Shown here in pieces: positions 12,231-29,885 of a stretch of DNA of 51,213 nt. Position 1 is the first letter of the stretch. Every line of letters begins with the position of its first letter. A program made the translations under genes and the position numbers. This DNA is from Chryseobacterium sp. FP211-J200. Lineage in GTDB: Bacteria > Bacteroidota > Bacteroidia > Flavobacteriales > Weeksellaceae. The stretch is from assembly GCF_001643375.1 (NCBI RefSeq), contig NZ_LSHB01000007.1, forward strand, positions 1 to 51,213, written 5' to 3'. Under the pieces are notes generated by a model. The model did no database searches. It was not told the DNA's origin and saw nothing but the letters and a program-made list of their open reading frames with translations.

Positions 12231-12638
12231 ATGGCAAACAATTCAAGAGCCGTATTAAAATTCAACGGCGGAACAGAACAAAAAATTCTTAAGCTAAATT
12301 ATGGTGTATCTAGAAACACCGACGTATCAGGAAGAGTGGCATCTGACCCTTCTAACGCATTGATCAAGATCACTGTGGAAGCAACAGAAGATTCCGGGAT
12401 CTTGGAAAGCTTACTGAACGGGAAATACAAGCCAACAAGCGGTGAAGTAACGTTCAACAAGTCTCACGAAGAAGGTACATTGACGACTTTGAAATGGGAT
12501 AACGGTTATGTGATCCAGCATGAAGTAGATTATGATGCTTTGAACGAGGACAATATGTTCGTCAGCTTCGTGATCAGTGCAGAGAAAATCGATTATGGTA
12601 ATTCTGCTTATGATGGAATCTGGCCAGGTGCAAAATAA
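12231..12638 (+). CDS. tssD: T6SS tube protein TssD (Hcp), copy 1
   Basis: A 135-residue Hcp/TssD of the Bacteroidota type. Hexameric rings of this protein stack to form the inner tube, which is expelled by sheath contraction. It begins MANNSRAVLKFNGG and ends IDYGNSAYDGIWPGAK. It differs from the second copy (50586-50993) at only three conservative positions (T/S, D/E, V/I), although the DNA has drifted at synonymous sites. The gene is a single-gene unit with its own palindrome, promoter and terminator. It marks the left edge of the T6SS locus. Confidence 0.95.
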   Translation: MANNSRAVLKFNGGTEQKILKLNYGVSRNTDVSGRVASDPSNALIKITVEATEDSGILESLLNGKYKPTSGEVTFNKSHEEGTLTTLKWDNGYVIQHEVDYDALNEDNMFVSFVISAEKIDYGNSAYDGIWPGAK

Positions 12639-12857: not shown

Positions 12858-13820
12858 CTATTCTATATCATCTGCAGATTTGGCATATTTAAGTGGAAAA
12901 ATATTTGTTTTAGTAGCTTCTTCTTTGTTTTCCACTAAGTTACTTTCAATCCAAAATTGATTCTTATCTTCAAATATTTTCCCTATTTCTTTGGAATCGT
13001 CTGCTCTGTATAAGTGTAAAGAATCATTGATCTCTTTATAGGTTATATCAAAGCTGAATGAACTGTTTCCACTAAAACCAAAATCTGAATGACCGGACTT
13101 GATGTCTATATAGTAGTTTCCTATAGAATCGCATCTTTTATAAGGATTATAATAATATACACCATCCCATTTTTCATTTTTAAAAGTATTTATCATTTGG
13201 AAGGCTCCTTTGAATTGAAAAGTTCCAATTTTGAGAAGATATGAATTGTTTTTTTCGAATAAACTTGCTTTGGAGTTTAGATATAGGTTTCTGATATCAT
13301 CGTGTGTTTCAAAATAAAAATGATCATCAGAAAAGATCTTGTTTTGCTGATCGTATTTTAGGATTTGAAAGGTCAAATATTCTTCTGTAGCTGTTGGGAA
13401 TAGAAAAATAATGTTACCATTTTTATTTTTAAGAATTTTAATTTCTTGAATAGCATCTTCAATATTAATGTCATAAGTAAAATTAAGACCGATCAAAATT
13501 TCTTGATCTTCTATTTTTAAAATTGCTGATTCCTTTTCTAGATCTAAATTTATAAATACATTTTTTAATACTGAAGATCCCAGTTCATAAATTATATTCT
13601 TTTCGTTCTCATTAATTTTAATTTTTTCAAGGTTGAGCTCTAAATAATCGTCTGAGATTGTTATTTTGTCATTGATGTTTTGACCTTGTTTTTTGCATTC
13701 ATAGACATTTACACCAAATATTAACAGTAAAGAAACAAGGACTACATTTTTGACACAGTCTTTCAATATATTGTTCATAACATCTTTATTTTTGTAAGTA
13801 TCTTTTACCATAAAATTCAT
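12858..13820 (-). CDS. Hypothetical secreted or lipid-anchored protein at the distal end of the lipoprotein array
   Basis: A 320-residue protein, or 306 if it starts at the ATG at 13778. A hydrophobic signal (NVVLVSLLLIFGVNVYEC) may end in a weak lipobox. The rest is soluble, Asn/Lys/Asp/Ile-rich and beta-prone, with no motif I recognise. It starts 4 bases after the stop of a truncated paralogue and is the last gene of the minus-strand run. An immunity-type role is a guess from context. Confidence 0.6.
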   Translation of the reverse strand: MNFMVKDTYKNKDVMNNILKDCVKNVVLVSLLLIFGVNVYECKKQGQNINDKITISDDYLELNLEKIKINENEKNIIYELGSSVLKNVFINLDLEKESAILKIEDQEILIGLNFTYDINIEDAIQEIKILKNKNGNIIFLFPTATEEYLTFQILKYDQQNKIFSDDHFYFETHDDIRNLYLNSKASLFEKNNSYLLKIGTFQFKGAFQMINTFKNEKWDGVYYYNPYKRCDSIGNYYIDIKSGHSDFGFSGNSSFSFDITYKEINDSLHLYRADDSKEIGKIFEDKNQFWIESNLVENKEEATKTNIFPLKYAKSADDIE

Positions 13821-13824
13821 AAAT

Positions 13825-14172
13825 CTAACAAGATTTTGTTGTGGATTGTATAGTCTGATGCCAAAACTTCAAGTTTAATTCATTATCATTTTCTGAAGCA
13901 CTTAACAGTATTAAAATATCGCCTACAATATATCTGATTTCTTCATTTTCATTTCCAAAAGCTTCCGCCTTAAGTATCGGAGATCGATCTGCTAATTTTT
14001 GAAGTGAAGGCATTTGAAAATAAGTCGCTTTTTCATGTGATGAAGAATCAATTTTCGAAATGGCAACCTGATTTTTATGATCTGGTTTATCTGTTTTTGA
14101 GCATGAATTTACAGTCAATCCGAACGTTGTCAATACTCCGATTAAAAATAGAAAGATCAATAGTTTTTTCAT
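13825..14172 (-). pseudogene. Truncated paralogue of the 24429-25244 lipoprotein
   Basis: From the ATG at 14172 the frame encodes a lipoprotein signal (KKLLIFLFLIGVLTTFGLTVNSC) and about 65 mature residues. These are close to identical to the start of the 271-residue protein at 24429-25244, through GDILIL. The reading then jumps to an unrelated tail (LSASENDNELNLK) and stops at 115 aa. The breakpoint coincides with the end of a 399-bp duplication. It may still be expressed as a short lipoprotein but lacks the domain carried by its full-length relative. Confidence 0.7.
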
Positions 14173-14303
14173 CTTAGTATCATTATAAAAGTGGAAGCAG
14201 AGCATTATCTATTCTAAACTGGCTATTTATAGTCTGAGTTAATGATTCAGCTTTTTTAAATCATCCGAATTAGCGTTTTCAAAATTGATTGTTTTAAAGT
14301 CTT
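13905..14303. repeat. 399-bp duplication, copy A (with 24977-25375)
   Basis: The stretch aligns without net length change to 24977-25375. It includes the 3' end of one gene (KDFKTINF...KKLNH stop), the intergenic leader, and the first third of the next lipoprotein gene. Identity is highest in the leader. Outside these bounds the copies are unrelated. Confidence 0.8.
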
Positions 14304-15366
14304 TGCTGGTATAGATTTCGTCACGAATCGATTTATCGGGATCTCTTCTATCTGTGAAAGATCTGCCATATTTGCTTAGAATAATTTCTTTTTTAGTTAT
14401 GTCGTACTTAAAAGTAGTGTATGTGTCGATAAACAACCAGCCAGCACCTTCTTGCTGTTCAATAGTGAAGTAATTATTTTTTACAACTACGTCCTTGAAT
14501 CCTTCTGCAGGAGTATTAGGCATAAACGTGTAGATTAAATCCCTATTCCTTAACGATTTATATGTTTTGTCTCCATTATTTAGCAAAACATAAATAGGAG
14601 AATCTAATGTTATTATATCGTTTTGGGTGAACTCTTTTTTGATACTGACGACCAATATAATATCTTGCAAACCGTCTCCATTGAGGTCGCATTTTTTTTC
14701 AAAGATCAATTTGTAGGAGTTATCTGCAAGTTCTTTTAATAAGGAGTCCAAATTTAGATTCTGCGAATCATAATCTCGAAGTCTTTGAGAGGAAAAATTT
14801 GCAATAGCGATTGAATAGGCTTTAGGATTACAATTTTTGATCTTAAACAAATATTGCGGAATTTCAGTTTTTTTCTTTACCCCATTAGCAATAAAGTGCC
14901 AAATACTTTTTTGTTGTTCATCAGAGTAATTGTTTAATTGCTCACATATTAAGCTGGGGTTTTTGGAGATCATGGTTTCTAGTTCCATTTGAAAGAAATT
15001 TTCAGCATCAACATCCCATTTTGCATTAATGGAAATATCTAGAGCTTTCTTAATGAATTTAGGATTATTTTTTAAGCATTGAAAAAACATCTTAATGTAA
15101 TCGTAAGATTCGTTGTACAGCGGTTTCCCTTTTCCAAGCTTGTCATCATATCCAAATGTTTCTTGAAACTGAGAAAAATCATTGGGGAAATTCGCAATAT
15201 ATTTTTTTTCATTTTCTTTTGTATCACTTTTGTTGACTCTTTGGTAATCATCTTTTAAAGAATCTATTTGAAGTTTAGATCTATTATCAATCTGTACCAT
15301 TTTTTTTTGTCCAGAAGAATCACATCCTATGAATAATAAAAAGAATGCTATAATATATATTTTCAT
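14239..15366 (-). CDS. Lipoprotein with VCBS/FG-GAP-like calcium-type motif
   Basis: A 375-residue lipoprotein: signal IIAFFLLFIGC with Cys15, then a helical region (about 40-210) and a beta-rich C-terminal half. The motif DLNGDGLQDIILVV resembles FG-GAP/VCBS repeats, which often bind calcium. The tail segment YFTIEQQEGAG resembles YFTIEQSYREGE in the protein at 25534-26118. The 3' end of this gene is duplicated as a remnant at 25311-25375. Likely anchored in the periplasm. The family is not recognised; immunity function is inferred from context. Confidence 0.65.
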   Translation of the reverse strand: MKIYIIAFFLLFIGCDSSGQKKMVQIDNRSKLQIDSLKDDYQRVNKSDTKENEKKYIANFPNDFSQFQETFGYDDKLGKGKPLYNESYDYIKMFFQCLKNNPKFIKKALDISINAKWDVDAENFFQMELETMISKNPSLICEQLNNYSDEQQKSIWHFIANGVKKKTEIPQYLFKIKNCNPKAYSIAIANFSSQRLRDYDSQNLNLDSLLKELADNSYKLIFEKKCDLNGDGLQDIILVVSIKKEFTQNDIITLDSPIYVLLNNGDKTYKSLRNRDLIYTFMPNTPAEGFKDVVVKNNYFTIEQQEGAGWLFIDTYTTFKYDITKKEIILSKYGRSFTDRRDPDKSIRDEIYTSKDFKTINFENANSDDLKKLNH

Positions 15367-15530
15367 TTCGTTTAAAATTTTTCTGTTACTAAAAGCTCAG
15401 CACCTTGTTTTCAAAAATTATGTTTTTTTCACCTATCATTGCAGATGCATTTGATTCATAAAACTTTAAAATTTGAAGAATTTTTTATTTAAATCTTGAA
15501 AAAGTTTTTCTTGCTTTGTTCCTCCTAAAA

Positions 15531-16565
15531 TTATAAATCTTTGTTAAGTATCTGCCAATCAGGATTTAAGAATTGTTTGCTTTTTATATAATATTTTCCA
15601 TTTTCTTTTTTAAGAAAAAAGTCAAATTCGTAAACTGGGTCGCATTTACCTCCTTTAGCATGTAAAATATCATTCTCATTTGTTAATTTAAAACTTCCCT
15701 CACATCCGTAATCCTGAACGCTATCAGCTCCAATACTTAAAATAGCGGTATCATTGGACTTAACAGTGATTGAGTAAAGTAAATCAATTTCTAGATTATC
15801 ATATCGGCTGATTGCCTTGGTTGTTATTGTATAATGACCTTTCCAATCGATTGAATATTTTGTGTTTTCTATTATTTCTTCAAGGTTTTTTATTTTAGGT
15901 TTTTTAACAGACGAAACTAATTTAACATTTCCATCCTCAGAAATTTGTATATGCTCTTCTTTCACAAATGTTGTCTTTTCTTCATCTGTTTCAAATTCCT
16001 TTACATATAAATCTCCTTGATTATTTAGATAACCAAGTCTCATTCCGACAGCATATGGATAATTTAGGTAAGAATATATATTGACTTTCTCTTTAAACTT
16101 TGATTTTGAAAAAATAAGCAGATCAATATCTTGGAATGTAGGAGGAATTTCATAATTACCATTCTCGGTTTTATAGGATTTGATATAAACAAAAGTGATG
16201 TCTTTATTTGAAATAGAATCCAAAACAAACAATGAATCAATTTTTTGGTTTTTTTTAGTTAATAAATTATTATAAATTTTAGTCTTTATCAATCGACCTT
16301 TAACTGAATCAAAATAATCTAAATCATTTAGTTTTTCTTCGAAATAATGAGCTTCTTTAGTTATTGGTGGAGCTTCGATATCATTATAAGCTTGAATATT
16401 CCAATAATCGGGAAATTGCACTTCAGATATATCTTTCCGTCCTATCTCCATAAAATAAAATGTTTTTTTAGTTAGCTTATCTTTCTCAATATGTGATATT
16501 TTATTACATGATGATATCAATAAAAAAATCCATATAAAACTAATTAAGTGACCCTTATGTTTCAT
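15531..16565 (-). CDS. Hypothetical lipoprotein
   Basis: A 344-residue protein with signal peptide and lipobox (FIWIFLLISSC, Cys20). The mature part is mixed alpha/beta, rich in Lys, Glu, Asp and Ile, with no enzyme motif that I recognise. It is flanked by intergenic gaps of about 160 bases upstream and 80 downstream, longer than most in this run, so it may have its own promoter. Low GC like its neighbours. Possible orphan immunity protein, by context only. Confidence 0.6.
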   Translation of the reverse strand: MKHKGHLISFIWIFLLISSCNKISHIEKDKLTKKTFYFMEIGRKDISEVQFPDYWNIQAYNDIEAPPITKEAHYFEEKLNDLDYFDSVKGRLIKTKIYNNLLTKKNQKIDSLFVLDSISNKDITFVYIKSYKTENGNYEIPPTFQDIDLLIFSKSKFKEKVNIYSYLNYPYAVGMRLGYLNNQGDLYVKEFETDEEKTTFVKEEHIQISEDGNVKLVSSVKKPKIKNLEEIIENTKYSIDWKGHYTITTKAISRYDNLEIDLLYSITVKSNDTAILSIGADSVQDYGCEGSFKLTNENDILHAKGGKCDPVYEFDFFLKKENGKYYIKSKQFLNPDWQILNKDL

Positions 16566-16644
16566 TCTTTTATAATTTTAATTTTTGATATACTAAATTT
16601 TCCAATATTTAAGCAACTTCAGATATCACCAAAAGTTTAAGCTC

Positions 16645-17286
16645 TTACTTCATATCTTCTTCTTTTTCGGAAATTACATTCCACCCATTATTTTTGTCTA
16701 ATTGAAAAATTGTTGTGGATGTTTTGCAACAACCGACAGGTACAATTGTTGTTAATGTATGATTGATATGATCAATTTTTTTTGGAAAACTTCCTTGATT
16801 TAATAGAAAATCTTGATCCAAATAAAACTCTTCATTATTATTTTGAAAATAGTACGCATAAGATGGGCCTCCATTTCCTCCAGAATCATAGAGTATGGCA
16901 AAATCCTCTAGACCATCAAAATTGTAGTCACCTATAATGAAGTCATGAAAATTCTCAACACCTTCCTTTATTGGTGTATTGTTTTGAAAGTAGCTGATCT
17001 GACTTACTTCAAAAGGTTCTTCGGCAACTTGCCAAAAATTAGGTTTGTAAGTTATGGTCTGAGAAATTTTATTATTTCGGGTAATTTCTATTTTAATTTC
17101 TATTGGTCTATCATCGCCATCTTTTTTTAAAATTTTAAAAGTAAAAGCTGGACTATTCTGTTTTTTATTTGAAATTATTTTTTTTTCAATACTTATTTTT
17201 GGTTTTGGTACAGCTAGCTTTTCAGCCTTCTGACAACTTAACAAACAAGCGAAAGTTACGCTTACAATTATATATTTCTTTTTCAT
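16645..17286 (-). CDS. Lipoprotein with XAC2610/FG-GAP-like fold
   Basis: A 213-residue lipoprotein (signal VSVTFACLLSC, Cys18). The region GDYNFDGLEDFAILYDSGG followed by PSYAYYFQ resembles the calcium-type loop of the XAC2610 family. In Xanthomonas, XAC2610 is the periplasmic immunity protein against a GH19-type lysozyme effector. If the match holds, this is a candidate inhibitor of the GH19-like domain of the effector encoded at 26747-29155. Assignment is from motif memory only, so family confidence is modest. Confidence 0.6.
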   Translation of the reverse strand: MKKKYIIVSVTFACLLSCQKAEKLAVPKPKISIEKKIISNKKQNSPAFTFKILKKDGDDRPIEIKIEITRNNKISQTITYKPNFWQVAEEPFEVSQISYFQNNTPIKEGVENFHDFIIGDYNFDGLEDFAILYDSGGNGGPSYAYYFQNNNEEFYLDQDFLLNQGSFPKKIDHINHTLTTIVPVGCCKTSTTIFQLDKNNGWNVISEKEEDMK

Positions 17287-17366
17287 ATGAGTAGATTTAA
17301 ATAATTCTAACTTTTGATTTGGTTAAGTTTTAATCCATTTGTTGCTAGCAGTTGTTCCTACTTTTA

Positions 17367-17600
17367 CTAAAGTGTCAGTTCCCGTAATGATAATATCCTT
17401 TCGACTGATGTTATTTTAATTTGATTTTATCCGGCTTTTATGCACATATCCTTCCTTTCCTTCTTTTGTTTTCACAAGGAACCAATCTCCAGAATTATCT
17501 AAAACATCGACACTCTCACCAGATTTTATTTTTTGTACGATTTCTGAAGTAGCGCCTTTTTCCTTTCGTAAATTTGAAAATCCATCGCTATCGTAAATTT
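17367..17600. repeat. SH3-tail homology block, copy A (with about 23207-23440)
   Basis: The last 180 or so bases of the gene at 17416-18543 and about 50 bases beyond its stop align with the same part of the gene at 23255-24373. The shared downstream stretch CTAAAGTGTCAGTT lies outside both coding regions, showing DNA-level copying rather than protein convergence. Confidence 0.7.
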
Positions 17601-18543
17601 TGAAACTCATAACTTTATTAACGATTTCATATGAGGGTTGGTGAATTGTTTCAGCATAGTCTCTTAATCTTTCAAACCCATAAAAATTATTCTTTTCTAA
17701 GAAATCTTTATAACTGCTATTTTTATTAAGCGTTTCCTCAATATTACCAGTTACACCAATTCTCAATTGTTTATCATACAGATAGGCGATTGTTTCCTCT
17801 GGTTGAAAGTATTGCGTTTTATTTTCGGATATTTTATCAATGATATTACTTACTCTATTGTAACCAACACCATCCTTTGCATAAGAGAAATCTTCTGTTT
17901 CACCTCCAAAAATGATGTTTTCGATATCATCAAAAATCCCTTTTCTGATGTAAAATTTTTTATCAGAAATATTGTAAGAAAAAATCAAGTCATGAAAGGA
18001 GATCTCATTATTAAAATCGAATCCGTCAAACGCAAATTTCACTAATTCTTTATCCTTATTGTAACCGAATAATCGCACCAGGTCTTTTAGTAATATGGAT
18101 TGGTTTAGTTTTAAATAGTTGTATGCAATTCTATCATTATTGAAAAGATAATTGTTATAATAAAATAGGAGATCTGCGTTTATTTTCTCTTTGTTATCAA
18201 AATCTGGATCTTCTATGAGTATGAATTTTTTTTCTTTTAGGGCAATGTTCGGAAACATGGAAGGCTTCAATACAACAATTTTATTTTTATATTGAGTAAT
18301 GTCAAACTCAAATATGTCCTTAATTCTAGTTTCAAAGGTTTTATCTGTGGGGAATTTGTATGACCTATCTATTAAACTTTTGTTTGCTAGGGCAATATAT
18401 TCGACAGAGAGCGTGTCGTAATTAAACGTTATTCCATCTCCTTCTTTTGATATGTTGTAGGGTGCAGTTTTTAAAGAATCCTGTCCGTTACAAGATGTAA
18501 TAAATAAAGTTGTCGCAAGTCTAAATATAAATAAATACTTCAT
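17416..18543 (-). CDS. Lipoprotein with C-terminal bacterial SH3 domain (family B)
   Basis: The start is set at 18543 (MKYLFIFRLATTLFITSC, lipobox Cys18); an upstream in-frame ATG overlaps the previous gene and would bury the signal. The 375-residue product has an N-terminal region homologous to the protein at 21967-23166 (shared SYKF/SFKF...F..K..IF and VRLFGYN/CKVYGYD segments). It ends in an SH3-like domain (DSDGFSNLRKEKGAT, then GESVDVLDNSGDWFLVKT and GYVHKSRIKSN). Bacterial SH3 domains often bind peptidoglycan peptides. It is a mosaic of two families in this array. Confidence 0.75.
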   Translation of the reverse strand: MKYLFIFRLATTLFITSCNGQDSLKTAPYNISKEGDGITFNYDTLSVEYIALANKSLIDRSYKFPTDKTFETRIKDIFEFDITQYKNKIVVLKPSMFPNIALKEKKFILIEDPDFDNKEKINADLLFYYNNYLFNNDRIAYNYLKLNQSILLKDLVRLFGYNKDKELVKFAFDGFDFNNEISFHDLIFSYNISDKKFYIRKGIFDDIENIIFGGETEDFSYAKDGVGYNRVSNIIDKISENKTQYFQPEETIAYLYDKQLRIGVTGNIEETLNKNSSYKDFLEKNNFYGFERLRDYAETIHQPSYEIVNKVMSFKIYDSDGFSNLRKEKGATSEIVQKIKSGESVDVLDNSGDWFLVKTKEGKEGYVHKSRIKSN

Positions 18544-18553
18544 TTTAATAGAT

Positions 18554-18660
18554 GCAGGTAAATTTTCTACTGCTATTTTTGTTAAAAAGTTCTCATTTCT
18601 CTTATTGAATCCGGTCATAAACTCTCTTAGGAATTTTTGATGAATCTTTGTTTTGGCTTT
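18554..18660. repeat. 107-bp duplicated patch, copy A (with 25395-25501)
   Basis: Includes the last 20 codons of the gene at 18602-19570 and the following spacer. The copy at 25395-25501 has lost coding capacity. Confidence 0.7.
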
Positions 18661-19570
18661 TCATTAAAGATATGTATTTCTTATAAGCCTCTTTAGCCGC
18701 TATTTTATTATTCATTCCCCATAAAGAATCACCATAATTGATCCATGCTACTACGCGAATGGGATATTTTCCTAAAATATTTTTAAGCAAGAAAACTGAT
18801 TCCCGATACTGTTTATTTTGTTCCAGATAATATGCAAGGTTATTGTAACTATTAACAGAATTATTGTCCAATACACTTTTTTCTATAAGAAAATCTAATT
18901 CTTTCGTGCTTAGCGGTGACGTGCAATTATATTTTTGATTTGTTCTCGTTGTAATTTCAGTTGCTTCTTTGAGGTTGATATCTCTCACCAATGCATATAA
19001 AAACTGCAGGTTAAAAAAATCTACTTGGGAAAAGTAGATGTTGTCTTTAGGAAGATAGGTGTAGTTTAATTTGCATATATCATAGTTTTCAACATACGTT
19101 TCTTTTTTAAATTCAACTTTCTCCAAAATGACAGAATTGTTCAATTCATTGAAATAGTATTTATAATTAATAAGATCGTGAGGATTATTGTCCTCCAATT
19201 GTTTCTGAATAATTAGAGACTTTTTATCAAGAAAAATTTCTCTCTCCCAATTTTTATTTCCCTTTATAGTTCCGTCATTAAAATTAACTTCAAAGTTCTC
19301 CTTATTACCGTCCAAATTTAAATCAATAAAGATGTTTTGAGTTGTTATTGTACTGTGTTCGTAAGGAGTTTGTTTTTGCAGTTTTTTAATTTCATCTTTT
19401 TCATTCGGTGCGATAGAAGCGTCATTACTTTTAATACTGCTTTTGTTACTTATTTTTTTATACCCTTTCTGTTGAGTTACCACTTGTTGTGAAGCAACAT
19501 CATTATTTTGATCTTTACCAGAACAGCTTATTAGAGTTAAACTTAGTATTAATGCAAAAAAATTATTCAT
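18602..19570 (-). CDS. Lipoprotein with TPR-like C-terminal region
   Basis: A 322-residue lipoprotein (FALILSLTLISC, Cys16). After a low-complexity Ser/Lys/Asn stretch comes a beta-rich part containing IDLNLDGNKENF, an FG-GAP-like loop. The C-terminal 100 residues form helical repeats like TPRs (NNLAYYLEQNKQYRESVFLLKNIL, WINYGDSLWGMNNKIAAKEAYKKY). Its 3' end overlaps the upstream extension of the next open frame but not that gene's likely start. TPRs suggest protein binding. No specific partner is evident. Confidence 0.65.
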   Translation of the reverse strand: MNNFFALILSLTLISCSGKDQNNDVASQQVVTQQKGYKKISNKSSIKSNDASIAPNEKDEIKKLQKQTPYEHSTITTQNIFIDLNLDGNKENFEVNFNDGTIKGNKNWEREIFLDKKSLIIQKQLEDNNPHDLINYKYYFNELNNSVILEKVEFKKETYVENYDICKLNYTYLPKDNIYFSQVDFFNLQFLYALVRDINLKEATEITTRTNQKYNCTSPLSTKELDFLIEKSVLDNNSVNSYNNLAYYLEQNKQYRESVFLLKNILGKYPIRVVAWINYGDSLWGMNNKIAAKEAYKKYISLMKSQNKDSSKIPKRVYDRIQ

Positions 19571-19585
19571 ACTCTTAAAATTAAA

Positions 19586-20691
19586 TTAATCGTTCTTATT
19601 TTTTTGTAATTGTTTTTTTAAAGCATCTATTTCTTTGTAAACTTTTTCTCTCTGTTTCCATGGCAAAAAGTACATGTAGAAAGCCATTTGCTGTGGAAGT
19701 GCATCAACTTTGTATGTATGACCATATTCCTCGTTTTTATATTCGTAAAGATCAACTATATCTTTCATTGATGTAATTTTTTTGTACGGATAGTTCCAAT
19801 CATCAAACAAGATATTTTCGTTCACTACATCAATAAAATTTACTTTCTCATTACAGGTCAACCAAATTTTTAATTGTTCTTCGCTTATAGAATTATCTAT
19901 TATTTTAGATTCTCTTTCAAAAAAAGAGGGCTTATAAAAATCTTTTTGAAGAATATAATTTCCAATTACTGTTTCAATCTTCTCTACAGTTGAAATGTCT
20001 TTTATATTATTTTTATTAATTCCATTTTTCAAATACTTATATAGTAAGATTGTTTGGTATTTTTTATCTGTATCAACAGTTGTTTCATAGTCGTCCTGGT
20101 CAATTAAATTTTGTGTATTATTTAATTTATTCAGATAATTTAAAGTTATAATGTTGGTGTTCGAAACTATTTTTTCTTCTTTTATAAGTAAGCACTCATG
20201 ATTTTCGTTTTGATATTTATAATTTTTTTTATTAAGGGATAGGAATACAATAATTCATCTTTCTCTATCTTCAAATACTGAGGAGTAATATATTCTGAAA
20301 AAATATCATAATTACTTATATTCAGTTTTTGGCGTATTAATTTATTTAAATTATTATAATAATTTTCATCAGGGGCCTCTTCATAAGTTAGATTGTTTTT
20401 AGAATCAAAGTTATCCCATAACTGTTGTAATTCTTTATTTTTCCCTAAATAATATAATGTAAATTGTCCAATTTTTTTGTCATAATAAGACATCGTTGGT
20501 ATTTTATTATTAGCATCTAAGGAATATAGAGAAAAATATTTTTTATCAAGAAAATCAATTTTGTTTTCCTTGGTATGTTTTTTTTCCTGTTGTTTTGTTG
20601 GTTTATCATCTTGTCCTTTACACGTTATAAAAAACAGCAAAAGCCACAATATTTTAAAAATTTTATTTAACTGTATTTCCATTTTTATCAA
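19586..20691 (-). pseudogene. Frameshifted family A lipoprotein (paralogue of 20767-21846)
   Basis: Two open frames join into one gene if the run of eight A (minus strand; T8 at 20223-20230) gains one A. The 5' part encodes a lipoprotein signal (WLLLFFITC) and ends in IKTKIMSAYL. In the shifted frame translation continues NYKYQNENHECLLIKEEK without a stop for about 60 codons into the 3' frame. That frame ends WNYPYKKI...FYMYFLPWKQREKVYKEI, matching WRYPYDEI...ALYTSLVSWKKRKSFFEEI of the neighbour. Restored length is about 365 aa against 359 for the intact paralogue. It could be a pseudogene, a phase-variable tract or a sequencing error. Confidence 0.75.
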
Positions 20692-20766
20692 ATTTTTCTG
20701 TCATTATGTTTTCTGCGTCAATTTTCGAACTCTAAATATTATTTTTTAATGGAAATATTAATTTTA

Positions 20767-21846
20767 TCAATCTTGAATAACTTCACTTTTTATTTTTATT
20801 TTGACTTGCTTTATTTCTTCAAAAAAAGATTTTCGCTTTTTCCATGAAACTAAAGAGGTGTATAATGCCATATGATAAAAAGGAATACTATAGGTTTTGT
20901 CAGTATCTGCTAAATCAGTGTAAAATAAAAGGACGGGTTTAAAGGAATTAATTTCGTCATATGGATACCTCCAATTTGGAACATCATCATGAGGAATTAC
21001 ATCATCCAAATCTAAAGTTTGAATCGAATTTAACCATATGGGTAATAATTCAACATATTTTTTATTGGTTGTAGCTCCTTTTAACATTCTTTGATGAAAT
21101 TCCTTTGTATTGAAATCTTTAGCATTATAATAATTGTGAACTACTGTTTCAATTTTACTTCTAGCATTGACCGATAAAATATTCCTTTCGTTGATATCAT
21201 TAAGTATGAATTGATAGAGTAGTTCTTTTTGGAATAATAAGTAATCATTTGCTTCGATTTTGGCAGCTTGTTTGGCAATACCAAATTTATAATTTGAATC
21301 ATCATCACTTATGTAGTCGTTCGGAATCGGACAAAAAGTATCAATACTCAAGTTGTATTTTTCTATCTTGATATTTTGACTGATTTTATAAACTTGTAAC
21401 ACTTGAAAATATTCAGTTTGTGAGCTATATTTCCCTACATATATCCTGTCTTTATCATTTTTGTTGTCATGGTATATTGAATAATCAAAGCCTTCGTCTA
21501 TTTTGAGAGTATCTTTTAGTATATTTCTATCAAATAATAGAAGGTATCTTCTCATATTTTTCGATAAAATAGATTTGTTTTTTTTATTATTAACAATACC
21601 TATTTCCAGTAATGAATATTTTTCATAATTAGTACCTCCGATGTCTTTATAGGTACCATTTTTAATTTCGAATAATCCATCTAATACTTTAGATGGATAC
21701 AAACTATTATTTTGACTTTTATCAATTATAGTCTCAGAATCGATATATTTTTTATCTTGAGAACTACAACTTATAAAAGTTATTAAAAATAGTAGTAATA
21801 CACTACTTTTTAGACTTGTAAATATGGTTTTTTTTTGATTCTTCAT
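20767..21846 (-). CDS. Family A lipoprotein, paralogue of the effector-linked immunity candidate
   Basis: The start is chosen at 21846 (MKNQKKTIFTSLK then VLLLFLITFISC, lipobox), giving 359 aa; the longer frame lacks a signal at its end. The middle region (LKDTLKIDEGFDYSI, IYVGKYSS, FCPIPNDYISDDDSNYKFGI) is clearly homologous to the protein directly downstream of the GH19/M23 effector (LKDTLKIKKKFDYSI, LAVGKYKM, DCPAPSDYVKDEEPDSYTFGV). The C-terminal half (IETVVHNYYNAKDF, WRYPYDEI, FYHMALYTSLVSWKKR) is shared with the broken neighbour but missing from the effector-linked copy. An immunity role is inferred from that homology. Confidence 0.72.
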   Translation of the reverse strand: MKNQKKTIFTSLKSSVLLLFLITFISCSSQDKKYIDSETIIDKSQNNSLYPSKVLDGLFEIKNGTYKDIGGTNYEKYSLLEIGIVNNKKNKSILSKNMRRYLLLFDRNILKDTLKIDEGFDYSIYHDNKNDKDRIYVGKYSSQTEYFQVLQVYKISQNIKIEKYNLSIDTFCPIPNDYISDDDSNYKFGIAKQAAKIEANDYLLFQKELLYQFILNDINERNILSVNARSKIETVVHNYYNAKDFNTKEFHQRMLKGATTNKKYVELLPIWLNSIQTLDLDDVIPHDDVPNWRYPYDEINSFKPVLLFYTDLADTDKTYSIPFYHMALYTSLVSWKKRKSFFEEIKQVKIKIKSEVIQD

Positions 21847-21966
21847 CTTTATTCTGCAGTTGGAGAAAATATTTGCTCTGTTTTTTATTCGCATCTTAAT
21901 AAAAAACAATAGTAGAAGGATGTATGTAATTTTTTATAAAATTTATTAATTCAGATTCTACTTGCA

Positions 21967-23166
21967 TCAATCAGGAGCACCCACAGAGTCAAATTGGTTT
22001 GCATAGTCTAATGACATTTTAAGATTAGGAAGGTTATAATAATTATTTTTAACAATTATAGAAGTGATTTCGTTCCATTCTGCATCATAAAATTCTTTAG
22101 CATCTGCTAAGATTGTAAGAGTTCCCCAATCTGTGTTATCATTATGGTAGGTCTTAAAAAGAGGATCAAAAACGTTTGCTAAGTAGCTAACTAACATCAC
22201 CTTATCTTCTCTCGAAAATTTTTCATACTCAGGACTACTCATTACCCGCGAAGCAATGTTTTTTAATATTATAGCATCATTGGATTTTTTGGAGATCTTG
22301 AGTGTATTGTTGAATGAATTAATAAAATTCTTATGAATAACAAGCTTTTTACCACAACTCTCGTTGACAAAGAAATTGATATTTTGATCAATACTGTTAT
22401 TTACTATAATTTTTTTTATGAAATGTTGGTTTATTTTATCATTATTATCATAACCATAGACTTTACAAAGCATCTCTAGGAAACTTTCATCATTAGATAA
22501 AAGCCAGGTTAATTGCTCATTTTTATCATTAAATAAAAACAAATTCCGACTAACAAGTTTCTCTATATTATTATTCCTGATTTGTGCAAGATTTTTATCT
22601 TCATTCCATTTTGTGATTTTCACATCACCTTGATTTTTATTGACCTGTTCTTCTTCATACTTTATGGATTCTGGAAATTCTTTTTGATAATCAATAATTT
22701 CAGGGATAGATAATAATTCGGTAATAAAACTTTTGTTTTTTACTAAATAATAAGATTGAGGAACCATTTCATCATCAGAATTTTTATTATAGATAATTTC
22801 TTTATTACATGCGTTATTACCATCAATATAGAGGTATTTTGTAGTCTTACCATAATCTATTTTCCTGTGGAAAATTTCATAAACCTTGGTCGAAAAATCT
22901 TCTGGGGATAAAAATTTAAACGATTTTTTTTGTAATTCCCTATCTAATAGAGGAATTGAACAGTCTAAATCCGATATTTTATATTCATAATTAGGATAAT
23001 CTGTTTCACTTTTTTCAGCAGAGTAACCTGCTTTAAGTTGAGGATACAAACAATTAGGTACTTCCATAGTTATATTGTTGGATGCAATTTTTGCTGATTT
23101 TTTGTCATTTTTTTGACAAGAAAGTAATTGAAATACTATCAATGATATTATTAATGCTTTTTTCAT
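21967..23166 (-). CDS. Family B lipoprotein without SH3 tail
   Basis: A 399-residue lipoprotein (LIVFQLLSC, Cys17). It aligns over much of its length with the N-terminal region of the protein at 17416-18543 but ends NQFDSVGAPD with no SH3 domain. It therefore represents the family without the swapped tail. Function unknown; likely periplasmic. Confidence 0.68.
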   Translation of the reverse strand: MKKALIISLIVFQLLSCQKNDKKSAKIASNNITMEVPNCLYPQLKAGYSAEKSETDYPNYEYKISDLDCSIPLLDRELQKKSFKFLSPEDFSTKVYEIFHRKIDYGKTTKYLYIDGNNACNKEIIYNKNSDDEMVPQSYYLVKNKSFITELLSIPEIIDYQKEFPESIKYEEEQVNKNQGDVKITKWNEDKNLAQIRNNNIEKLVSRNLFLFNDKNEQLTWLLSNDESFLEMLCKVYGYDNNDKINQHFIKKIIVNNSIDQNINFFVNESCGKKLVIHKNFINSFNNTLKISKKSNDAIILKNIASRVMSSPEYEKFSREDKVMLVSYLANVFDPLFKTYHNDNTDWGTLTILADAKEFYDAEWNEITSIIVKNNYYNLPNLKMSLDYANQFDSVGAPD

Positions 23167-23206
23167 AATATTTAACTTCTAGTTGTTGAAGAGGAGTCTA
23201 CATCTT

Positions 23207-23440
23207 CTAAAGTGTCAGTTCTTGTAATGAAATATCCTTTCGTCTGATGTTGTTTTAATTTGATTTTATCCGGCTTTGATGTACATATCCTTTTCTATCT
23301 TGTTTGGTAACAACCAACCACCAATCTCCGGAACTATCTAAAATTTCTACTTTTTCTCCTGATCTTATTGTTTGTAAGATTTGTGATAACGAATTTTTTT
23401 CTTTTCTCAAGTTCGTAAAACCATCTGCGTCTTTAATAGT
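23207..23440. repeat. SH3-tail homology block, copy B (with 17367-17600)
   Basis: Covers the SH3-coding 3' end of the gene at 23255-24373 plus about 48 bases downstream of the stop. It matches the block at 17367-17600, including non-coding bases. Confidence 0.7.
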
Positions 23441-24373
23441 AGAATATTTTTTTTCTTGACTATCCTCTTTTATTAGTTCGTAGCTAATTGAATATTTTTC
23501 AAGATCTGCGTAGCCATAATATTTGTTTTTTAGAAAGATTTCTTTTAATTCGGGATGCGAAACGTATATGTTGTTAAGTAAAGTGTAAGATTTATCTATT
23601 TGCATATCGATGTGATTCTTGTTTTCAAGACCTAGTTGCAAAATATAGGCAGTAGCCTTTTCTATAAGATCGGAAGGAACACTGTTTGTTTTCGTTATTT
23701 TTTCTTTATGATCGGCTAAATAAAAAGTTAATGCATAAATAAAATCGTTTTTTTGCTGTAGTCCTTTTAAGAGTCTTTCTCTAATTTTAAAATTATTATT
23801 AAAGAAAACAAATGATAATCTATTACTTTGCTCGATATCTTCCCAGTTTTGAATATTTCTGATAGCGGCTTGTAATAACGATTCATTTTTTTCATAGTTA
23901 AACATCACTACTAGGTCGATTGCAAGATCCGGATGTTTAGAAGCAATATTCAAAATTGAAGTGAGGTCATTTTGATAAATAATTTTATTTAATGACAAAA
24001 GCTCATCAAAATAAGGTTGCCTTATATTATCCTCTATATTACTTTGAATACTATCCAGGTCAGGCAAGATATCGTTACCAATTTTGATGTATTTGCCCTC
24101 TTTTGAAATTTGATAATTGGTTGGCTCGTTAAAAATTATTATATCATTGTAACCTTTTTGTAAAACGTCTGGTTGAATGCCCAACAAATTTTCATTGACA
24201 TTATTGAAGTTTTCTTCATTATTGTTAAAATGATGTTTTTTGAAATAATTTTCTGTTATTTCTATTTCTTTTTTATCCATTGGATTTTCTTTTTCTTGCG
24301 AGTGACAGGAATGAAACACCATTACAGATAATATGATGGTCGTTAAGAATGATATTTTTTTGTAGAATGTCAT
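23255..24373 (-). CDS. Lipoprotein with helical body and C-terminal SH3 domain
   Basis: The start is at 24373 (MTFYKKISFLTTIILSVMVFHSC, lipobox Cys23), giving 372 aa. The body (about 30-300) is helical and not clearly related to the family B body. The C-terminus is an SH3-like domain (DADGFTNLRKEKNSL, GEKVEILDSSGDWWLVVT, GYVHQSRIKSN) nearly the same as in the protein at 17416-18543. The same tail on two different bodies shows domain exchange. SH3 domains may hold the protein near peptidoglycan. Confidence 0.72.
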   Translation of the reverse strand: MTFYKKISFLTTIILSVMVFHSCHSQEKENPMDKKEIEITENYFKKHHFNNNEENFNNVNENLLGIQPDVLQKGYNDIIIFNEPTNYQISKEGKYIKIGNDILPDLDSIQSNIEDNIRQPYFDELLSLNKIIYQNDLTSILNIASKHPDLAIDLVVMFNYEKNESLLQAAIRNIQNWEDIEQSNRLSFVFFNNNFKIRERLLKGLQQKNDFIYALTFYLADHKEKITKTNSVPSDLIEKATAYILQLGLENKNHIDMQIDKSYTLLNNIYVSHPELKEIFLKNKYYGYADLEKYSISYELIKEDSQEKKYSTIKDADGFTNLRKEKNSLSQILQTIRSGEKVEILDSSGDWWLVVTKQDRKGYVHQSRIKSN

Positions 24374-24428
24374 GTTGATCAAAGGAGGTTGAGTTTTTTT
24401 GGTTTCTTTCTACAATGTAGCAGCAAAT

Positions 24429-25244
24429 TTATTTTTCCAATGAGACAAGTCTAACATGCAAAGCGCTTGGTGAGAGATCAATTCGCTCCAAAAAGCCTAA
24501 AATCAGTATTCCTGTTTTTTGTTTATCCATAGAGATTTCTCCAAGAAGATCTCCATTATAGATTATTATGGATTTACATTCCGAACATAATTGGTTTTTT
24601 GAAGTTCGATCAAGAAAAATTGTTTTGTGATCATTAAGATCAATTTGAATTTCTACTAGTTCCTGTAAATCATGTTCAGTGGTTTCAAAAATTCTTTTTA
24701 AAGACGTTTCTTTTATTTGATCATATGGTAGCAAAGAAAGCTTTTGATCTAAAGGTTTCGTTTTTTCTTTCTCTAAAATTACTAAAATTTCATCTTTGAA
24801 ACTTTCATAAAACTCTGCCAGGACAATTGACTTTCCATTGTCATTATTGATCAACCATTCTTTCGCAACTGTGGGAACATTATCATTTTTGTCTTGAACA
24901 ACTAAGTTTATATAAAAATTATCATCTTCGGTAGTTTTTGGTAAAAGACTCAAATAAGCTATTTTCGTATCAACAGACAGTATTAAGATATCTCCTACAA
25001 GATATCTAATTTCTTCATTTTCATTTCCAAAAGATTCCGCCCTTATTATCGGCGACCTATCTGCCAATTTTTGAAGTGGAGGCAAGTGAAAATAAACCGT
25101 TTTTTCATTTGATGAAGAATCAATTTTCGAAGTAACTACCTGATTTTTATAATCTGGTTTATCTGTTTTTGAGCATGAATTTACAGTCAATCCAAACGTT
25201 GTCATCAAACCGATTAAAAATAGAATGATCAATAGTTTTTTCAT
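24429..25244 (-). CDS. Full-length lipoprotein duplicated in part at 13825-14172
   Basis: The start is at 25244 (MKKLLIILFLIGLMTTFGLTVNSC, lipobox Cys24), giving 271 aa. The mature protein has a conserved N-terminal segment (LQKLADRSPIIRAESFGNENEEIRYLVGDILIL) and then about 170 residues ending in a beta-rich tail (ILGFLERIDLSPSALHVRLVSLEK). No family recognised. The first third and the leader are part of the 399-bp duplication. The copy at 13825-14172 is truncated, so this is the intact version. Confidence 0.68.
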   Translation of the reverse strand: MKKLLIILFLIGLMTTFGLTVNSCSKTDKPDYKNQVVTSKIDSSSNEKTVYFHLPPLQKLADRSPIIRAESFGNENEEIRYLVGDILILSVDTKIAYLSLLPKTTEDDNFYINLVVQDKNDNVPTVAKEWLINNDNGKSIVLAEFYESFKDEILVILEKEKTKPLDQKLSLLPYDQIKETSLKRIFETTEHDLQELVEIQIDLNDHKTIFLDRTSKNQLCSECKSIIIYNGDLLGEISMDKQKTGILILGFLERIDLSPSALHVRLVSLEK

Positions 25245-25375
25245 CTTAGTATAATTATAAAAGTGGAAGCAGAGCATTATCTATTCAAAACTGGCTATTT
25301 ATAGTCTGAGTTAATGATTCAGCTTTTTTAAATCATCCGAATTAGCGTTTTCAAAATTGATTGTTTTAAAGTCTT
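24977..25375. repeat. 399-bp duplication, copy B (with 13905-14303)
   Basis: Same extent as copy A with no net indel. The part past the start codon is non-coding here, because only the last 20 or so codons of the upstream gene were copied with it. Confidence 0.8.
25311..25375 (-). pseudogene. 3'-end remnant of the 14239-15366 lipoprotein gene
   Basis: Encodes only the last 20 or so residues (KTINFENANSDDLKKLNH and a stop), the same as the end of the gene at 14239-15366. The sequence upstream is unrelated. It is a by-product of the 399-bp duplication. Confidence 0.7.
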
Positions 25376-25394
25376 CGTAGACGAATCTGATATG

Positions 25395-25501
25395 GCAGGT
25401 AAATTTTCTTCTGCTATTTTTGTTAAAAAGTTCTCATTTCTCTTATTGAATCTGGTCTTAAACTCTCTTAGGAAATTCTGATAAATCTCTGTTTTGGCTT
25501 T
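25395..25501 (-). pseudogene. Degenerate 3'-end remnant of the 18602-19570 lipoprotein gene
   Basis: Matches 18554-18660 over 107 bases. In the copy the frame is interrupted: where the source reads GTT TAT GAC, this reads GTT TAA GAC. It lies 19 bases from the previous remnant, so the 25.3-25.5 kb spacer is built from the ends of two different genes of the array. Confidence 0.7.
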
Positions 25502-25533
25502 GATTGGTGTTATTATTAAGTTTGTAATATTCT

Positions 25534-26118
25534 TTAATCTCTTAGCGAAGCCAGAAACTCGGAAGTAACATCTTCTATTTTAACTTTTCCTATTGTTTTT
25601 TGGTCAAGACGAAGACCTAAAACGTCCTCTTCAAGATTATGGATATTGGTGTAATCAATCGCATACTTGTACAAATAAATTGATTGGGCTTCTTTCTTAA
25701 ATGTAATATATTCATAGTTGGTGTGTTCTCCTTCTCTATAAGATTGTTCAATGGTAAAATAAGGGAATTTAATAACCATTTTCTCGAAACCCATATAAGG
25801 TGAATCTTCCTTCGGTATTCGGATAAATTTTCCGGATTCAATAGTTCCAATTTTAAGTTTTCCATATTTGTAAAAGTTATCTGATTCTTCTGAAAGAAAA
25901 AGAAAAATTGTTTCTTTATTAAATGCCCATTTATCAGCAAATTTTTCTTGAACTTTTAGTGTGTCAGGATTAATTTTAGTTTTGTTCGGCTTTACTAAAT
26001 CACTGACTATTATTTTTGATTGCAAATTCTTACTTTCATTTTTAAAATGATTATTTGAATTTTGTTCACAACCAAAAAAAATAAGTGCACTAGAAATTAT
26101 AGTTATTAAGTGTTTCAT
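25534..26118 (-). CDS. Small lipoprotein next to the effector-immunity pair
   Basis: A 194-residue lipoprotein (IISSALIFFGC, Cys17). The C-terminal part (FPYFTIEQSYREGEHTNYEYITFKKEAQSIYLYKY) resembles the corresponding stretch of the protein at 14239-15366 (NNYFTIEQQEGAG...TFKYDITKKEIILSKY). Its start codon abuts the stop of the upstream gene, so the two are translationally linked. Candidate accessory immunity protein. Confidence 0.68.
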   Translation of the reverse strand: MKHLITIISSALIFFGCEQNSNNHFKNESKNLQSKIIVSDLVKPNKTKINPDTLKVQEKFADKWAFNKETIFLFLSEESDNFYKYGKLKIGTIESGKFIRIPKEDSPYMGFEKMVIKFPYFTIEQSYREGEHTNYEYITFKKEAQSIYLYKYAIDYTNIHNLEEDVLGLRLDQKTIGKVKIEDVTSEFLASLRD

Positions 26119-26799
26119 TTATTGATTATTTAAAGAGTTTTCATACCAGTATCTGTTAAGTTTTTTTCCTCCCACAACTCCAAATGTATACGAATCTGGT
26201 TCTTCATCTTTTACATAATCACTGGGAGCCGGACAGTCAAAAACAGTAGTACTCAATTTAATTTTTTTAATTTTTCCTTCAGTATCTATTTGATACAAAT
26301 GATGAATTTCAAAAAATTCATTACCTGCACTCATTTTATATTTGCCTACTGCTAGACCAATTTTTCTGTTCTCCTTGTCTAATTGACAAATAGAATAGTC
26401 AAATTTCTTTTTAATTTTCAAAGTGTCTTTTAATATTTTATTTCCAGTGATAAACAAATATTTTGTGCTTCTTTTAGATTCTATTTTGGATAAATCAGTT
26501 TCATTACTTGCGATTAATTCAGTAACTATATAATCACTTTGACCAATTTTTTGCCATCCCTTTTGAATAAAATATTTAGAATTTTCATTAAAAATTTCCT
26601 TAATTTTTTTTGACTGCAAAACAGTAAATGAACCATCATTGCAAATCTTTTCAGAATATTTTTCTAATGAAAAAGGTTTGTTAATAATATCCATCTCTTG
26701 TCCTTTACAAAAAATGCAAACCGAAAATATCACAATAAATCTAAATTTATAAACCTCGTTGATCAGCTTTTTGAGGATTCCATTTTGTTTTTGTACCAT
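26119..26799 (-). CDS. Putative immunity lipoprotein of the GH19/M23 effector (family A, short)
   Basis: I take the ATG at 26799 (MVQKQNGILKKL, then FIVIFSVCIFC lipobox), giving 226 aa. The gene begins inside the 3' end of the effector gene, overlapping by 53 bases, the classic layout of effector-immunity pairs. The mature part contains LKDTLKIKKKFDYSI, GLAVGKYKM and DCPAPSDYVKDEEPDSYTFGVV, shared with the family A proteins at 20767-21846 and the broken 19586-20691. A lipid anchor puts it in the periplasm, where a peptidoglycan hydrolase would have to be blocked. Function inferred from position and location. Confidence 0.72.
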   Translation of the reverse strand: MVQKQNGILKKLINEVYKFRFIVIFSVCIFCKGQEMDIINKPFSLEKYSEKICNDGSFTVLQSKKIKEIFNENSKYFIQKGWQKIGQSDYIVTELIASNETDLSKIESKRSTKYLFITGNKILKDTLKIKKKFDYSICQLDKENRKIGLAVGKYKMSAGNEFFEIHHLYQIDTEGKIKKIKLSTTVFDCPAPSDYVKDEEPDSYTFGVVGGKKLNRYWYENSLNNQ

Positions 26800-29168: not shown

Positions 29169-29885
29169 TTATTCTACCTCAAAACTATCCGGATTCATTT
29201 CTTCCTGAAACTCTTCAAAATCCACAATAGGATTATATGCCTGCTGTTCCTGAGAATTTGCATTATTCACATTACTTTTTCCAGCTTCGCTTTGCTGGCC
29301 GTGTTTCATGACTGTGATTTTCCCACCTGTTGCGCACATCAATTCTGATATTTCTGTCACGGCACTTTTGCCCATCACTTTTACCTTGTCGTAAGTCTTT
29401 GTCCATTTGCCGGCAGGTGCGTAAGCACAGGGATTTCCGTTTTTTACACTGCACGTCCCAAAAGGCATTGCAGGCGGATTGAAGATAAGATCATCTTCCG
29501 TAACAGCTAAATAATCAACTTCACCTTTTTCGTCATTCCAAAAATGTTTTTGATGGCTGGTCACTTTGAAGTTCGGAAACTTTGCGCCTTTGTCACAACA
29601 CGCCATTCCTTTTTGAACAACGAAGTATTTACCATCATGTTCGCTAGAGCTGCTCTCACTTTGCTTATCTTGCTCTGTTTCACTTTCGTTTTCGTCAGTT
29701 GATTCTTCATTTCCCTCCGGCTGTGAAGTCTCTTCTTCCATCGTGTCCTGTCCTTCGTCTATCGATTCATCTTCGAAGTCATTCGTAGGATCAGATTCGT
29801 CATTATTTTCCAATCTTTCCAGATCAGGTTGAACAAATTCATCTTCTTCTTGAGACAAATTATTGTGGTCAGGATATTTTTTCAT
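29169..29885 (-). CDS. PAAR-like (DUF4280) T6SS spike-tip protein with acidic N-terminal extension
   Basis: Residues about 85-200 match the DUF4280 PAAR-like family (VQKGMACCDKGAKFPNFKV, NPPAMPFGTCSVKNGNPCAYAPAGKW, SELMCATGGKITVMKHGQ). These proteins cap the spike and carry effectors. Residues 1-80 are extremely rich in Glu, Asp, Ser and Gln, which is unusual and likely disordered. The C-terminal 35 residues are also acidic. The start overlaps the end of the LysM gene by 17 bases and the effector follows, so the three form a delivery cassette. Confidence 0.85.
   Translation of the reverse strand: MKKYPDHNNLSQEEDEFVQPDLERLENNDESDPTNDFEDESIDEGQDTMEEETSQPEGNEESTDENESETEQDKQSESSSSEHDGKYFVVQKGMACCDKGAKFPNFKVTSHQKHFWNDEKGEVDYLAVTEDDLIFNPPAMPFGTCSVKNGNPCAYAPAGKWTKTYDKVKVMGKSAVTEISELMCATGGKITVMKHGQQSEAGKSNVNNANSQEQQAYNPIVDFEEFQEEMNPDSFEVE

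Follow-up and report, generated by a model that had tools for sequence, protein, structure and literature searches.

Arrays of orphan immunity genes associated with the type VI secretion system (T6SS) have been described in Vibrio cholerae, where they arise via sequential effector displacement (Kirchberger et al. 2017, PMC5361080). Here we analyzed a stretch of 51,213 nucleotides from Chryseobacterium sp. FP211-J200 (contig NZ_LSHB01000007.1, positions 1 to 51,213 of the forward strand; hereafter the window), in which an AT-rich array of 14 mostly lipoprotein-like genes (12858-26847, minus strand) lies downstream of an effector of a subtype iii T6SS (T6SS-iii). As far as the available passages of the V. 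cholerae paper go, the two kinds of array resemble each other in order (an effector, its antidote, then a row matching the effectors of other strains) and in apparent history, in that the end of an old effector precedes shifted antidotes and a conserved upstream region seems to act as the recombination anchor. Unlike the V. cholerae arrays described there, the present locus belongs to a Bacteroidota T6SS-iii, its antidotes are predicted lipoproteins, its warheads appear to be two-domain and cell-wall-cutting, and its antidotes look two-headed or split.

Several other systems share some of these features, here again as given in the available parts of the cited papers. Polyimmunity loci and polyimmunity proteins (Zhang et al. 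2012, PMC3482391), the collection of which holds a single lipoprotein immunity family, Imm65, likewise show tandem immunity genes and fusions of unrelated immunity domains; the fused domains were taken to be polyvalent, acting against several toxins, whereas here the halves covary with the two domains of one effector. Double-blade WHIX effectors (PMC12135965) also have two toxic domains, each with its own antidote, and DUF3828/Tai3 among the neighbouring genes, but in the case studied two separate antidote genes flank the effector, whereas here both halves lie downstream, often in one gene. TseP of Aeromonas dhakensis is a bifunctional amidase-lysozyme effector whose single antidote, TsiP, binds both domains (PMC11893102). 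Our effectors would similarly combine two cell-wall activities with one antidote for both domains, with immunity here being a prediction; separately exchangeable halves are unmentioned in the passages available on TseP/TsiP, whereas here the halves appear exchangeable. Recombinase-associated acquired interbacterial defence in Bacteroidales (PMC12247911) also involves Bacteroidota orphan immunity arrays against T6SS effectors, but those arrays are associated with recombinases and, in the case studied, have SUKH-domain antidotes, whereas the present array belongs to an effector cassette.

Precedents are in print for displacement arrays, for polyimmunity proteins, and for effectors whose two toxic domains call for two antidotes (PMC5361080, PMC3482391, PMC12135965, as far as their available parts show). 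What appears to be new is a two-headed, reverse-ordered match of antidote halves to warhead domains. In the open-licence literature, judged by titles and the beginnings of abstracts, none of the papers listed dealt with antidote halves that change together with the respective domains of a two-domain effector, and no array of such kind was among the matches listed for T6SS immunity in Chryseobacterium and Flavobacterium.

A Modular Effector and Its Proposed Antidotes

We propose that the array encodes periplasm-facing lipoprotein antidotes against peptidoglycan-cutting T6SS effectors, that the halves of these antidotes match the tip and the middle of the effector, and that the remaining genes are leftovers of displacement. 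We put the probability of this reading at roughly 0.85. The effector would be modular: its delivery chassis would be constant, its middle would cut glycan, and its tip, in this case an M23 peptidase, would be exchangeable. In a full-length antidote, which would be exported to the periplasm or outer membrane, the N-half would bind and inhibit the tip and the C-half the middle, i.e., in the reverse order relative to the effector. In the window, the cognate antidote appears to be divided between two genes, gene 14 for the tip and gene 13 for the middle. The other genes would mostly be antidotes of earlier or foreign effectors, left after a new tip-antidote cassette had recombined into the effector gene and shuffled later on; kept orphans may give protection against kin still bearing the old effectors.

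In what follows, L and G numbers designate fetched loci and genomes, respectively, L034 is Epilithonimonas lactis (E. lactis), and +1 denotes the gene directly behind an effector. In the gene count, the two open reading frames (ORFs) 20182-20691 and 19586-20032 make up a single gene (19586-20691) that is now split, and the truncated copy 13825-14205 is included. Lengths are in amino acids (aa), and all features listed below lie on the minus strand.

26747-29155, minus strand: T6SS effector, 802 aa, with a delivery chassis (about residues 1-245), a GH19/endolysin-like middle (about 285-570), and an M23 peptidase tip (about 633-802).
26119-26847 (likely start 26799), minus strand: gene 14, a family A member made of an N-module alone, probably the cognate antidote for the M23 tip; matches N-modules only.
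25534-26118, minus strand: gene 13, probable cognate antidote for the GH19-like middle, a C-module alone; matches C-modules only.
24429-25277, minus strand: gene 12, family D; no +1 homologue, one match far down an array, present in 8 of 320 genomes.
23255-24382, minus strand: gene 11, putative SH3-tailed orphan of immunity type (SH3 about 23267-23416; SH3_3, 2e-10); 11 +1 homologues, one of them without the SH3 tail.
21967-23166, minus strand: gene 10, putative orphan lipoprotein of immunity type; 11 +1 homologues, 93% in E. lactis.
20767-21909, minus strand: gene 9, family A, full length; 95% in E. lactis, with a beta N-domain and a helical C-domain in a middling-confidence model.
20182-20691, minus strand: gene 8, N-terminal ORF of a split gene of immunity type; 13 +1 homologues, matching N-modules only.
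19586-20032, minus strand: gene 8, ORF for the C-terminal part of the split gene; 54% over 142 aa to L034 8894-9967, with the E. lactis homologue being intact (357 aa).
18602-19570, minus strand: gene 7, putative orphan; 84% over 273 aa to its E. lactis counterpart (459 aa).
17416-18618, minus strand: gene 6, putative SH3-tailed orphan lipoprotein of immunity type (SH3 about 17428-17574); 13 +1 homologues, six of them without the SH3 tail, 90% in E. lactis.
16645-17286, minus strand: gene 5, putative orphan of C-module type; three +1 homologues, C-modules only.
15531-16565, minus strand: gene 4, putative two-headed orphan; ten +1 homologues.
14239-15366, minus strand: gene 3, putative two-headed orphan with a helical N-domain and a beta C-domain of the GH19-associated type in its model; ten +1 homologues.
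13825-14205, minus strand: gene 2, truncated copy of the start of gene 12 (13905-14303 vs 24977-25375, 92%).
12858-13820, minus strand: gene 1, putative orphan of immunity type; four homologues in the fetched loci, all at +1.

Pfam analysis of the effector revealed an M23 domain (1e-12) and a GH19 match (1e-3) that is below the Pfam cut-off. Among PDB sequences, its best match was 8xcl (2e-14), which is named only "EF-hand domain-containing protein"; residues 409-520 matched glycoside hydrolase and endolysin chains (2e-9 to 1e-8), and residues 691-744 matched LytM (0.0015).

Antidote Halves Covary with the Two Effector Domains

The chassis is present in 159 of the 320 genomes of the family. 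We fetched 100 stretches from the chassis matches listed, taken downward to about E 1e-13 and passing over both matches of G152, the second of G190, that of G172, and the third of G253; 18 further stretches and four of ten other loci were added, some of which overlap. These loci contain 136 chassis ORFs, or 122 after dropping those identical in the last 120 residues. Each effector was cut into a tip (last 170 residues) and a middle (the preceding 310), and each antidote into a C-part (last 150 residues) and an N-part (the rest). The test set comprised 77 effectors longer than 600 aa with a +1 lipoprotein of at least 280 aa, leaving aside those with shorter or non-lipoprotein +1 genes; SH3 tails had been removed beforehand (9 of the 77 proteins), and similarity reduction left 66.

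Comparison of these proteins showed that each half is shared mainly together with one effector domain. In pairs alike in both domains, the N-half was shared in 21/24 and the C-half in 23/24. Pairs alike only in the middle shared the N-half in 3/58 and the C-half in 20/58; for pairs alike only in the tip, the figures were reversed (N 23/34, C 2/34), and pairs alike in neither domain shared each half in 8/1508. Such pairs are non-independent, and relatedness is only partly controlled. The same direction was observed in ten settings, including pairs with unlike chassis. Analysis of conditional information placed the tip-N relationship given the middle, and the middle-C relationship given the tip, above all 500 permutations, whereas middle-N given the tip was not above them (p 0.12 to 0.33).

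Because its short +1 gene kept it from the 77, the window could be used as a held-out case. Gene 14 matches only the N-halves of L107 and L162, which have the two closest tips among the 77. Gene 13, starting at the base right after gene 14, matches only C-halves (7 of 77), and those of the four closest middle domains are all included. The tip of L107 is 58% alike to that of the window but its middle differs, with a weak Phage_lysozyme2 match, and in its antidote the N-half is gene 14-like and the C-half gene 4-like. Effectors that precede this type of C-half include some whose middle weakly matches Phage_lysozyme2 (below the Pfam cut-off). In a preliminary description of the window, made from its sequence, genes 14 and 13 lay within the range proposed as an immunity or orphan-immunity array. 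These two look less like orphans than like the two parts of a split antidote that is cognate to the window effector.

Models of genes 3 and 9 consist of two domains of different secondary structure, which meet near residue 200-220. The gene 3 model has a predicted local distance difference test score (pLDDT) of 82, with a dip at 194-200, and no clear relative of it was found in PDB. The N-half of the L038 antidote is DUF3828, which has been equated with the antidote family Tai3 in the available part of the WHIX paper (PMC12135965).

A plain displacement array of single-target antidotes is a possible but rather unlikely alternative, in which the difference between the halves would come from linked recombination that carries the tip and the adjacent N-half together. 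The tip and the N-half are indeed adjacent on the DNA, and C-halves, too, are informative on the tip once the middle is given. On the other hand, the middle and the C-half are not adjacent, yet they covary when the tip differs (the 20/58 above vs 8/1508), and chassis likeness shows no correlation with either half (r 0.008 and 0.033). The split also persists in pairs of low chassis similarity (middle-only: N 3 and C 12 of 31; tip-only: N 22 and C 2 of 31), separate single-half genes exist and fall in the window as predicted, and the models have two domains.

Two-headed antidotes with one half for each effector domain remain our preferred reading, against which several points weigh. In the weakest setting (tip of 130 and C-part of 100 residues), middle-only pairs shared the N-half in 9 and the C-half in 14 of 34. 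The tip-C relationship given the middle was also above all 500 permutations, so that C-halves still tell something about the tip at a constant middle and obey their rule less exclusively than N-halves obey theirs. Neither half is shared in 38/58 middle-only pairs, and the C-half is common to two tip-only pairs (L060/L115 and L098/L060). L133, which has the closest tip of all compared (59-62%) and was not among the 77 because of its short +1 gene, does not have a gene 14-like +1 gene. Because the locus recombines, part of the covariation could come from physical linkage. As regards the array itself, the D pair (genes 2 and 12) is without +1 homologue, and gene 11 keeps only one +1 relative without the SH3 tail. 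Finally, some orphans may be dead, given a truncated gene 2, a split gene 8, and a gene 7 that falls short of the length of its E. lactis counterpart.

Array Families Recur Directly behind Effectors

When the mature proteins were used as queries, 12 of the 14 array genes had homologues at +1 behind an effector with the same chassis in other genomes. By a simple rule, the +1 gene is a lipoprotein in 101/119 cases, vs 386/1512 for all ORFs of at least 120 aa (the +1 genes included). Matches to the array families (E ≤1e-4) were found for 65/118 +1 genes, 165/497 downstream genes, and 24/966 other genes; with matches to the SH3 tail alone excluded, 60/118 and 151/497 remained for the first two classes. 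Across loci, the antidote family tracks the toxin tip. By comparison, 17 non-array genes of the window gave zero +1 matches as queries, several of them matching elsewhere.

Because these loci had been chosen for their effectors, two effector-independent searches were carried out with the gene 10 and D families. The gene 10 family was detected in 75/320 genomes, all 75 of which are among the 204/320 with TssC (hypergeometric 4e-18, uncorrected for kinship). Beyond the largest genus, it was found in 15 genomes, 15/15 with TssC vs 34/147 (2e-11, again uncorrected for kinship); this test takes G037-G209 as one genus, which is true of those listed. Of 20 fetched loci, ten were read. In six of the ten, a gene of about 1400 aa is immediately followed by a gene 10 relative, and three of these six large genes contain a GH19-like stretch resembling that of the window effector. 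The D family is rare (8/320 genomes), with two weak partial matches in genomes without TssC.

The main claim of the preliminary description, an array of immunity or orphan-immunity proteins against cell-wall-attacking effectors, is supported by the +1 position, by the tracking of tips by families, and by the effector remnants in front of orphans described below. Evidence for unrelated metabolic roles did not emerge, as SH3 alone reached the Pfam cut-off among the array proteins, nor did the gene 10 family appear in genomes lacking TssC (75/75 have it). We regard it as highly improbable that the array reflects paralogue amplification without an immunity function, or a lipoprotein family with an envelope role such as peptidoglycan binding via SH3. 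The SH3 tails, the lipoboxes, and some close internal copies (genes 2 and 12, and SH3 tails 77% alike in DNA) would suit such a reading; the position behind effectors in many genomes, the matching of families to tips, the effector remnants, and the co-occurrence of the gene 10 family with TssC speak against it.

If it holds, the link between toxin domains and antidote halves would extend to a large, mostly unannotated set of lipoproteins in Chryseobacterium relatives, and the targets of many "hypothetical proteins" could be predicted from sequence. A bacterium could swap one of its two warheads while keeping protection from the other, and the order of an array might be read as a history of the weapons once held.

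Array Content Differs between Strains

In E. lactis, at the corresponding site (effector cassette on one side, hcp on the other), the window effector has a counterpart with 88-96% identity over residues 1-200 and less than 50% after. Behind this different effector, the order is counterparts of genes 7 (84%), 6 (90%), 10 (93%), 9 (95%), and 8 (54%, over the C part only), then four others. The gene 7 type is therefore next to the effector in E. lactis, whereas in the window many array genes separate the two. In G013, the effector is a different one, and behind it come a gene 3-like gene and then a 91% copy of gene 14, which begins at the equivalent of 26799; G016 and G017 have a single antidote each, of the gene 3 type. 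Because the arrays differ in this way, the array is not conserved and changes with the effector, which is what the comparison between strains with the T6SS core held fixed was proposed to examine in the preliminary description. In G013, an 83-bp piece of a DUF4280 gene lies between two antidote genes (L036 7865-7947) and is possibly a cassette scar.

The genome that contains the window has two further contigs, C58 and C25, each with a whole chassis effector and its own lipoprotein at +1. The C58 antidote shares its C-half type with gene 7 (56% over 89 aa), so gene 7 might also serve at home.

Effector Remnants and Probable Growth by Displacement

We found 77 effector fragments in the regions downstream of effectors, with those ending less than 500 bp from the effector omitted as possible frameshifts of the effector itself. 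Their sizes range from tails of about 30 residues up to effectors lacking only the chassis. Of these fragments, 31 reach the effector C-terminal end, and in 26 cases an ORF starts -70 to 100 bp after. In 24 of the 26, this ORF resembles the antidote of effectors of the fragment's kind; drawing effectors at random gave a mean of 5.2 and a maximum of 12 in 1000 draws. A direct example is provided by L101 and L095, whose DNA shares 97% identity through the PAAR-like gene and the effector up to about residue 410. Past this shared part, the effector of L101 ends differently and a new antidote follows; behind these, L101 retains the final 43 codons of the L095 effector together with the L095 antidote (99%). 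Remnants of displaced effectors lie before shifted antidotes both in relatives and in the window. An effector remnant and a relic of a gene junction were identified in the window:

20663-20731, minus strand: remnant of an effector C-terminus, 22 codons plus stop, overlapping the gene 8 start; score 66.
25395-25501, minus strand: 107-bp relic of the gene 7/gene 6 junction, between genes 12 and 13; 93% to 18554-18660 and 91% to E. lactis.

The effector remnant exceeds the maximum of 48 in Markov-random arrays (0/100 reach 66), and three stretches taken from the window as controls scored 35-37. Of the eight effector tails that match it, six come from effectors whose +1 gene belongs to the gene 8 family.

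Based on these observations, the array likely originated by sequential effector displacement. Shuffling is suggested by the SH3-coding gene ends, whose DNA shows rearranged joins: in the window, genes 10 and 9 are linked to the SH3-coding end of gene 11, whereas in E. lactis this block (94%) starts within the SH3 end of gene 6. The shared SH3 ends therefore look like recombination hinges. We consider it fairly probable that the T6SS cell-wall effectors of Bacteroidota and their antidotes evolve as matched modular kits, in which a two-headed lipoprotein has reverse-ordered halves, each exchanged with its own domain and sometimes split into separate genes, and that the array serves both as a record of used warheads and as a source of recombinable half-antidotes, with the SH3-coding ends as hinges.

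In acquired interbacterial defence clusters, the orphan array is separate from the T6SS effector cassette. The preliminary description had compared the array to such clusters, but displacement as in V. cholerae fits better. It is improbable that the orphans were gathered from outside by a recombinase element instead of deriving from the strain's own effectors. They are mosaic and AT-rich, and some are close to genes of other species, as would be expected from such gathering. The array, however, lies directly behind an effector inside the T6SS locus, effector ends stand in front of orphans, and no recombinase was found among the Pfam-scanned genes, in which the left flank is represented by four genes only.

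Additional observations were made on remnants and SH3 ends. SH3-coding gene ends (17428-17574 and 23267-23416, and in many arrays) recur behind unrelated antidotes, sometimes as solo remnants. In a second effector array of the genome that contains the window (L042 9774-10201, contig C25), a fossil effector consists of pieces resembling N-terminal residues 12-91 and the last 62 residues. At L133 5004-5603, a 199-aa ORF between two antidote genes resembles, by eye, a displaced cysteine-peptidase-like effector end, and it overlaps a stretch that aligns to the L059 effector end.

Locus Layout and T6SS Setting

About 13 consecutive minus-strand genes had been noted previously; the strand and coordinates agree with our analysis, and the count is 14. 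Their AT-richness was confirmed (GC content of 25-31% in the array vs 32-41% from 27001 on). An ordinary lipobox-like site, read by eye from the sequences, is present in 12/14, and the non-canonical sites are at 12858 (VYEC) and 26119 (CIFC). As had also been reported, the gene nearest the effector overlaps it, by 101 nucleotides from the first ATG or by 53 from the start used by the 91% orthologue.

The proposed relationships within the array were mostly recovered. Family A is supported by 20767 vs 26119 (40% over 119 aa, E about 2e-16) and 20767 vs 19586-20032 (32% over 143 aa, E about 1e-13), the SH3-tailed pair by 17416 vs 23255 (31% over 277 aa, E 9e-24, with Pfam SH3_3 in both), and family D by 83% over 100 aa (92% over 399 bp of DNA). 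For family B (17416 vs 21967), the direct match is weak (E 0.003), but the same intermediate proteins match both members. An additional relationship, missing from the preliminary description, was found between 14239 and 25534 (genes 3 and 13; 29% over 90 aa, E 5e-5 to 1e-4).

Two genes lie upstream of the effector in its cassette, and the Pfam matches beside the effector place the T6SS core in subtype iii: TssN (1e-80), TssC (1e-224), TssD (7e-31), TssO, and TssR.

29169-29885, minus strand: DUF4280 gene, directly upstream of the effector (Pfam 4e-17), which we take to be PAAR-like.
29869-30912, minus strand: opening gene of the effector cassette, which may begin with LysM (E 0.04 only); also upstream of the cassette in E. 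lactis and others.

Two TssD (Hcp) genes (12231-12638 and 50586-50993), identical in 132/135 residues, flank the T6SS region; shortly after the second copy comes the end of the contig, all of which the window covers. Relative to E. lactis and G013, the operon from tssO to hcp lies on the opposite side of clpV, and a solo hcp remains at the end of the array. Overlapping ORFs at 39201-39596 and 38134-39300 match two parts of a single 463-aa protein of the same genome (L049 1191-2582), so 38134-39596 looks like one broken gene. The first 50-60 residues of this protein recur at the starts of five ORFs in a stretch of contig C9 of the same genome, some of them beside lipoproteins, and perhaps represent a second delivery-leader family.

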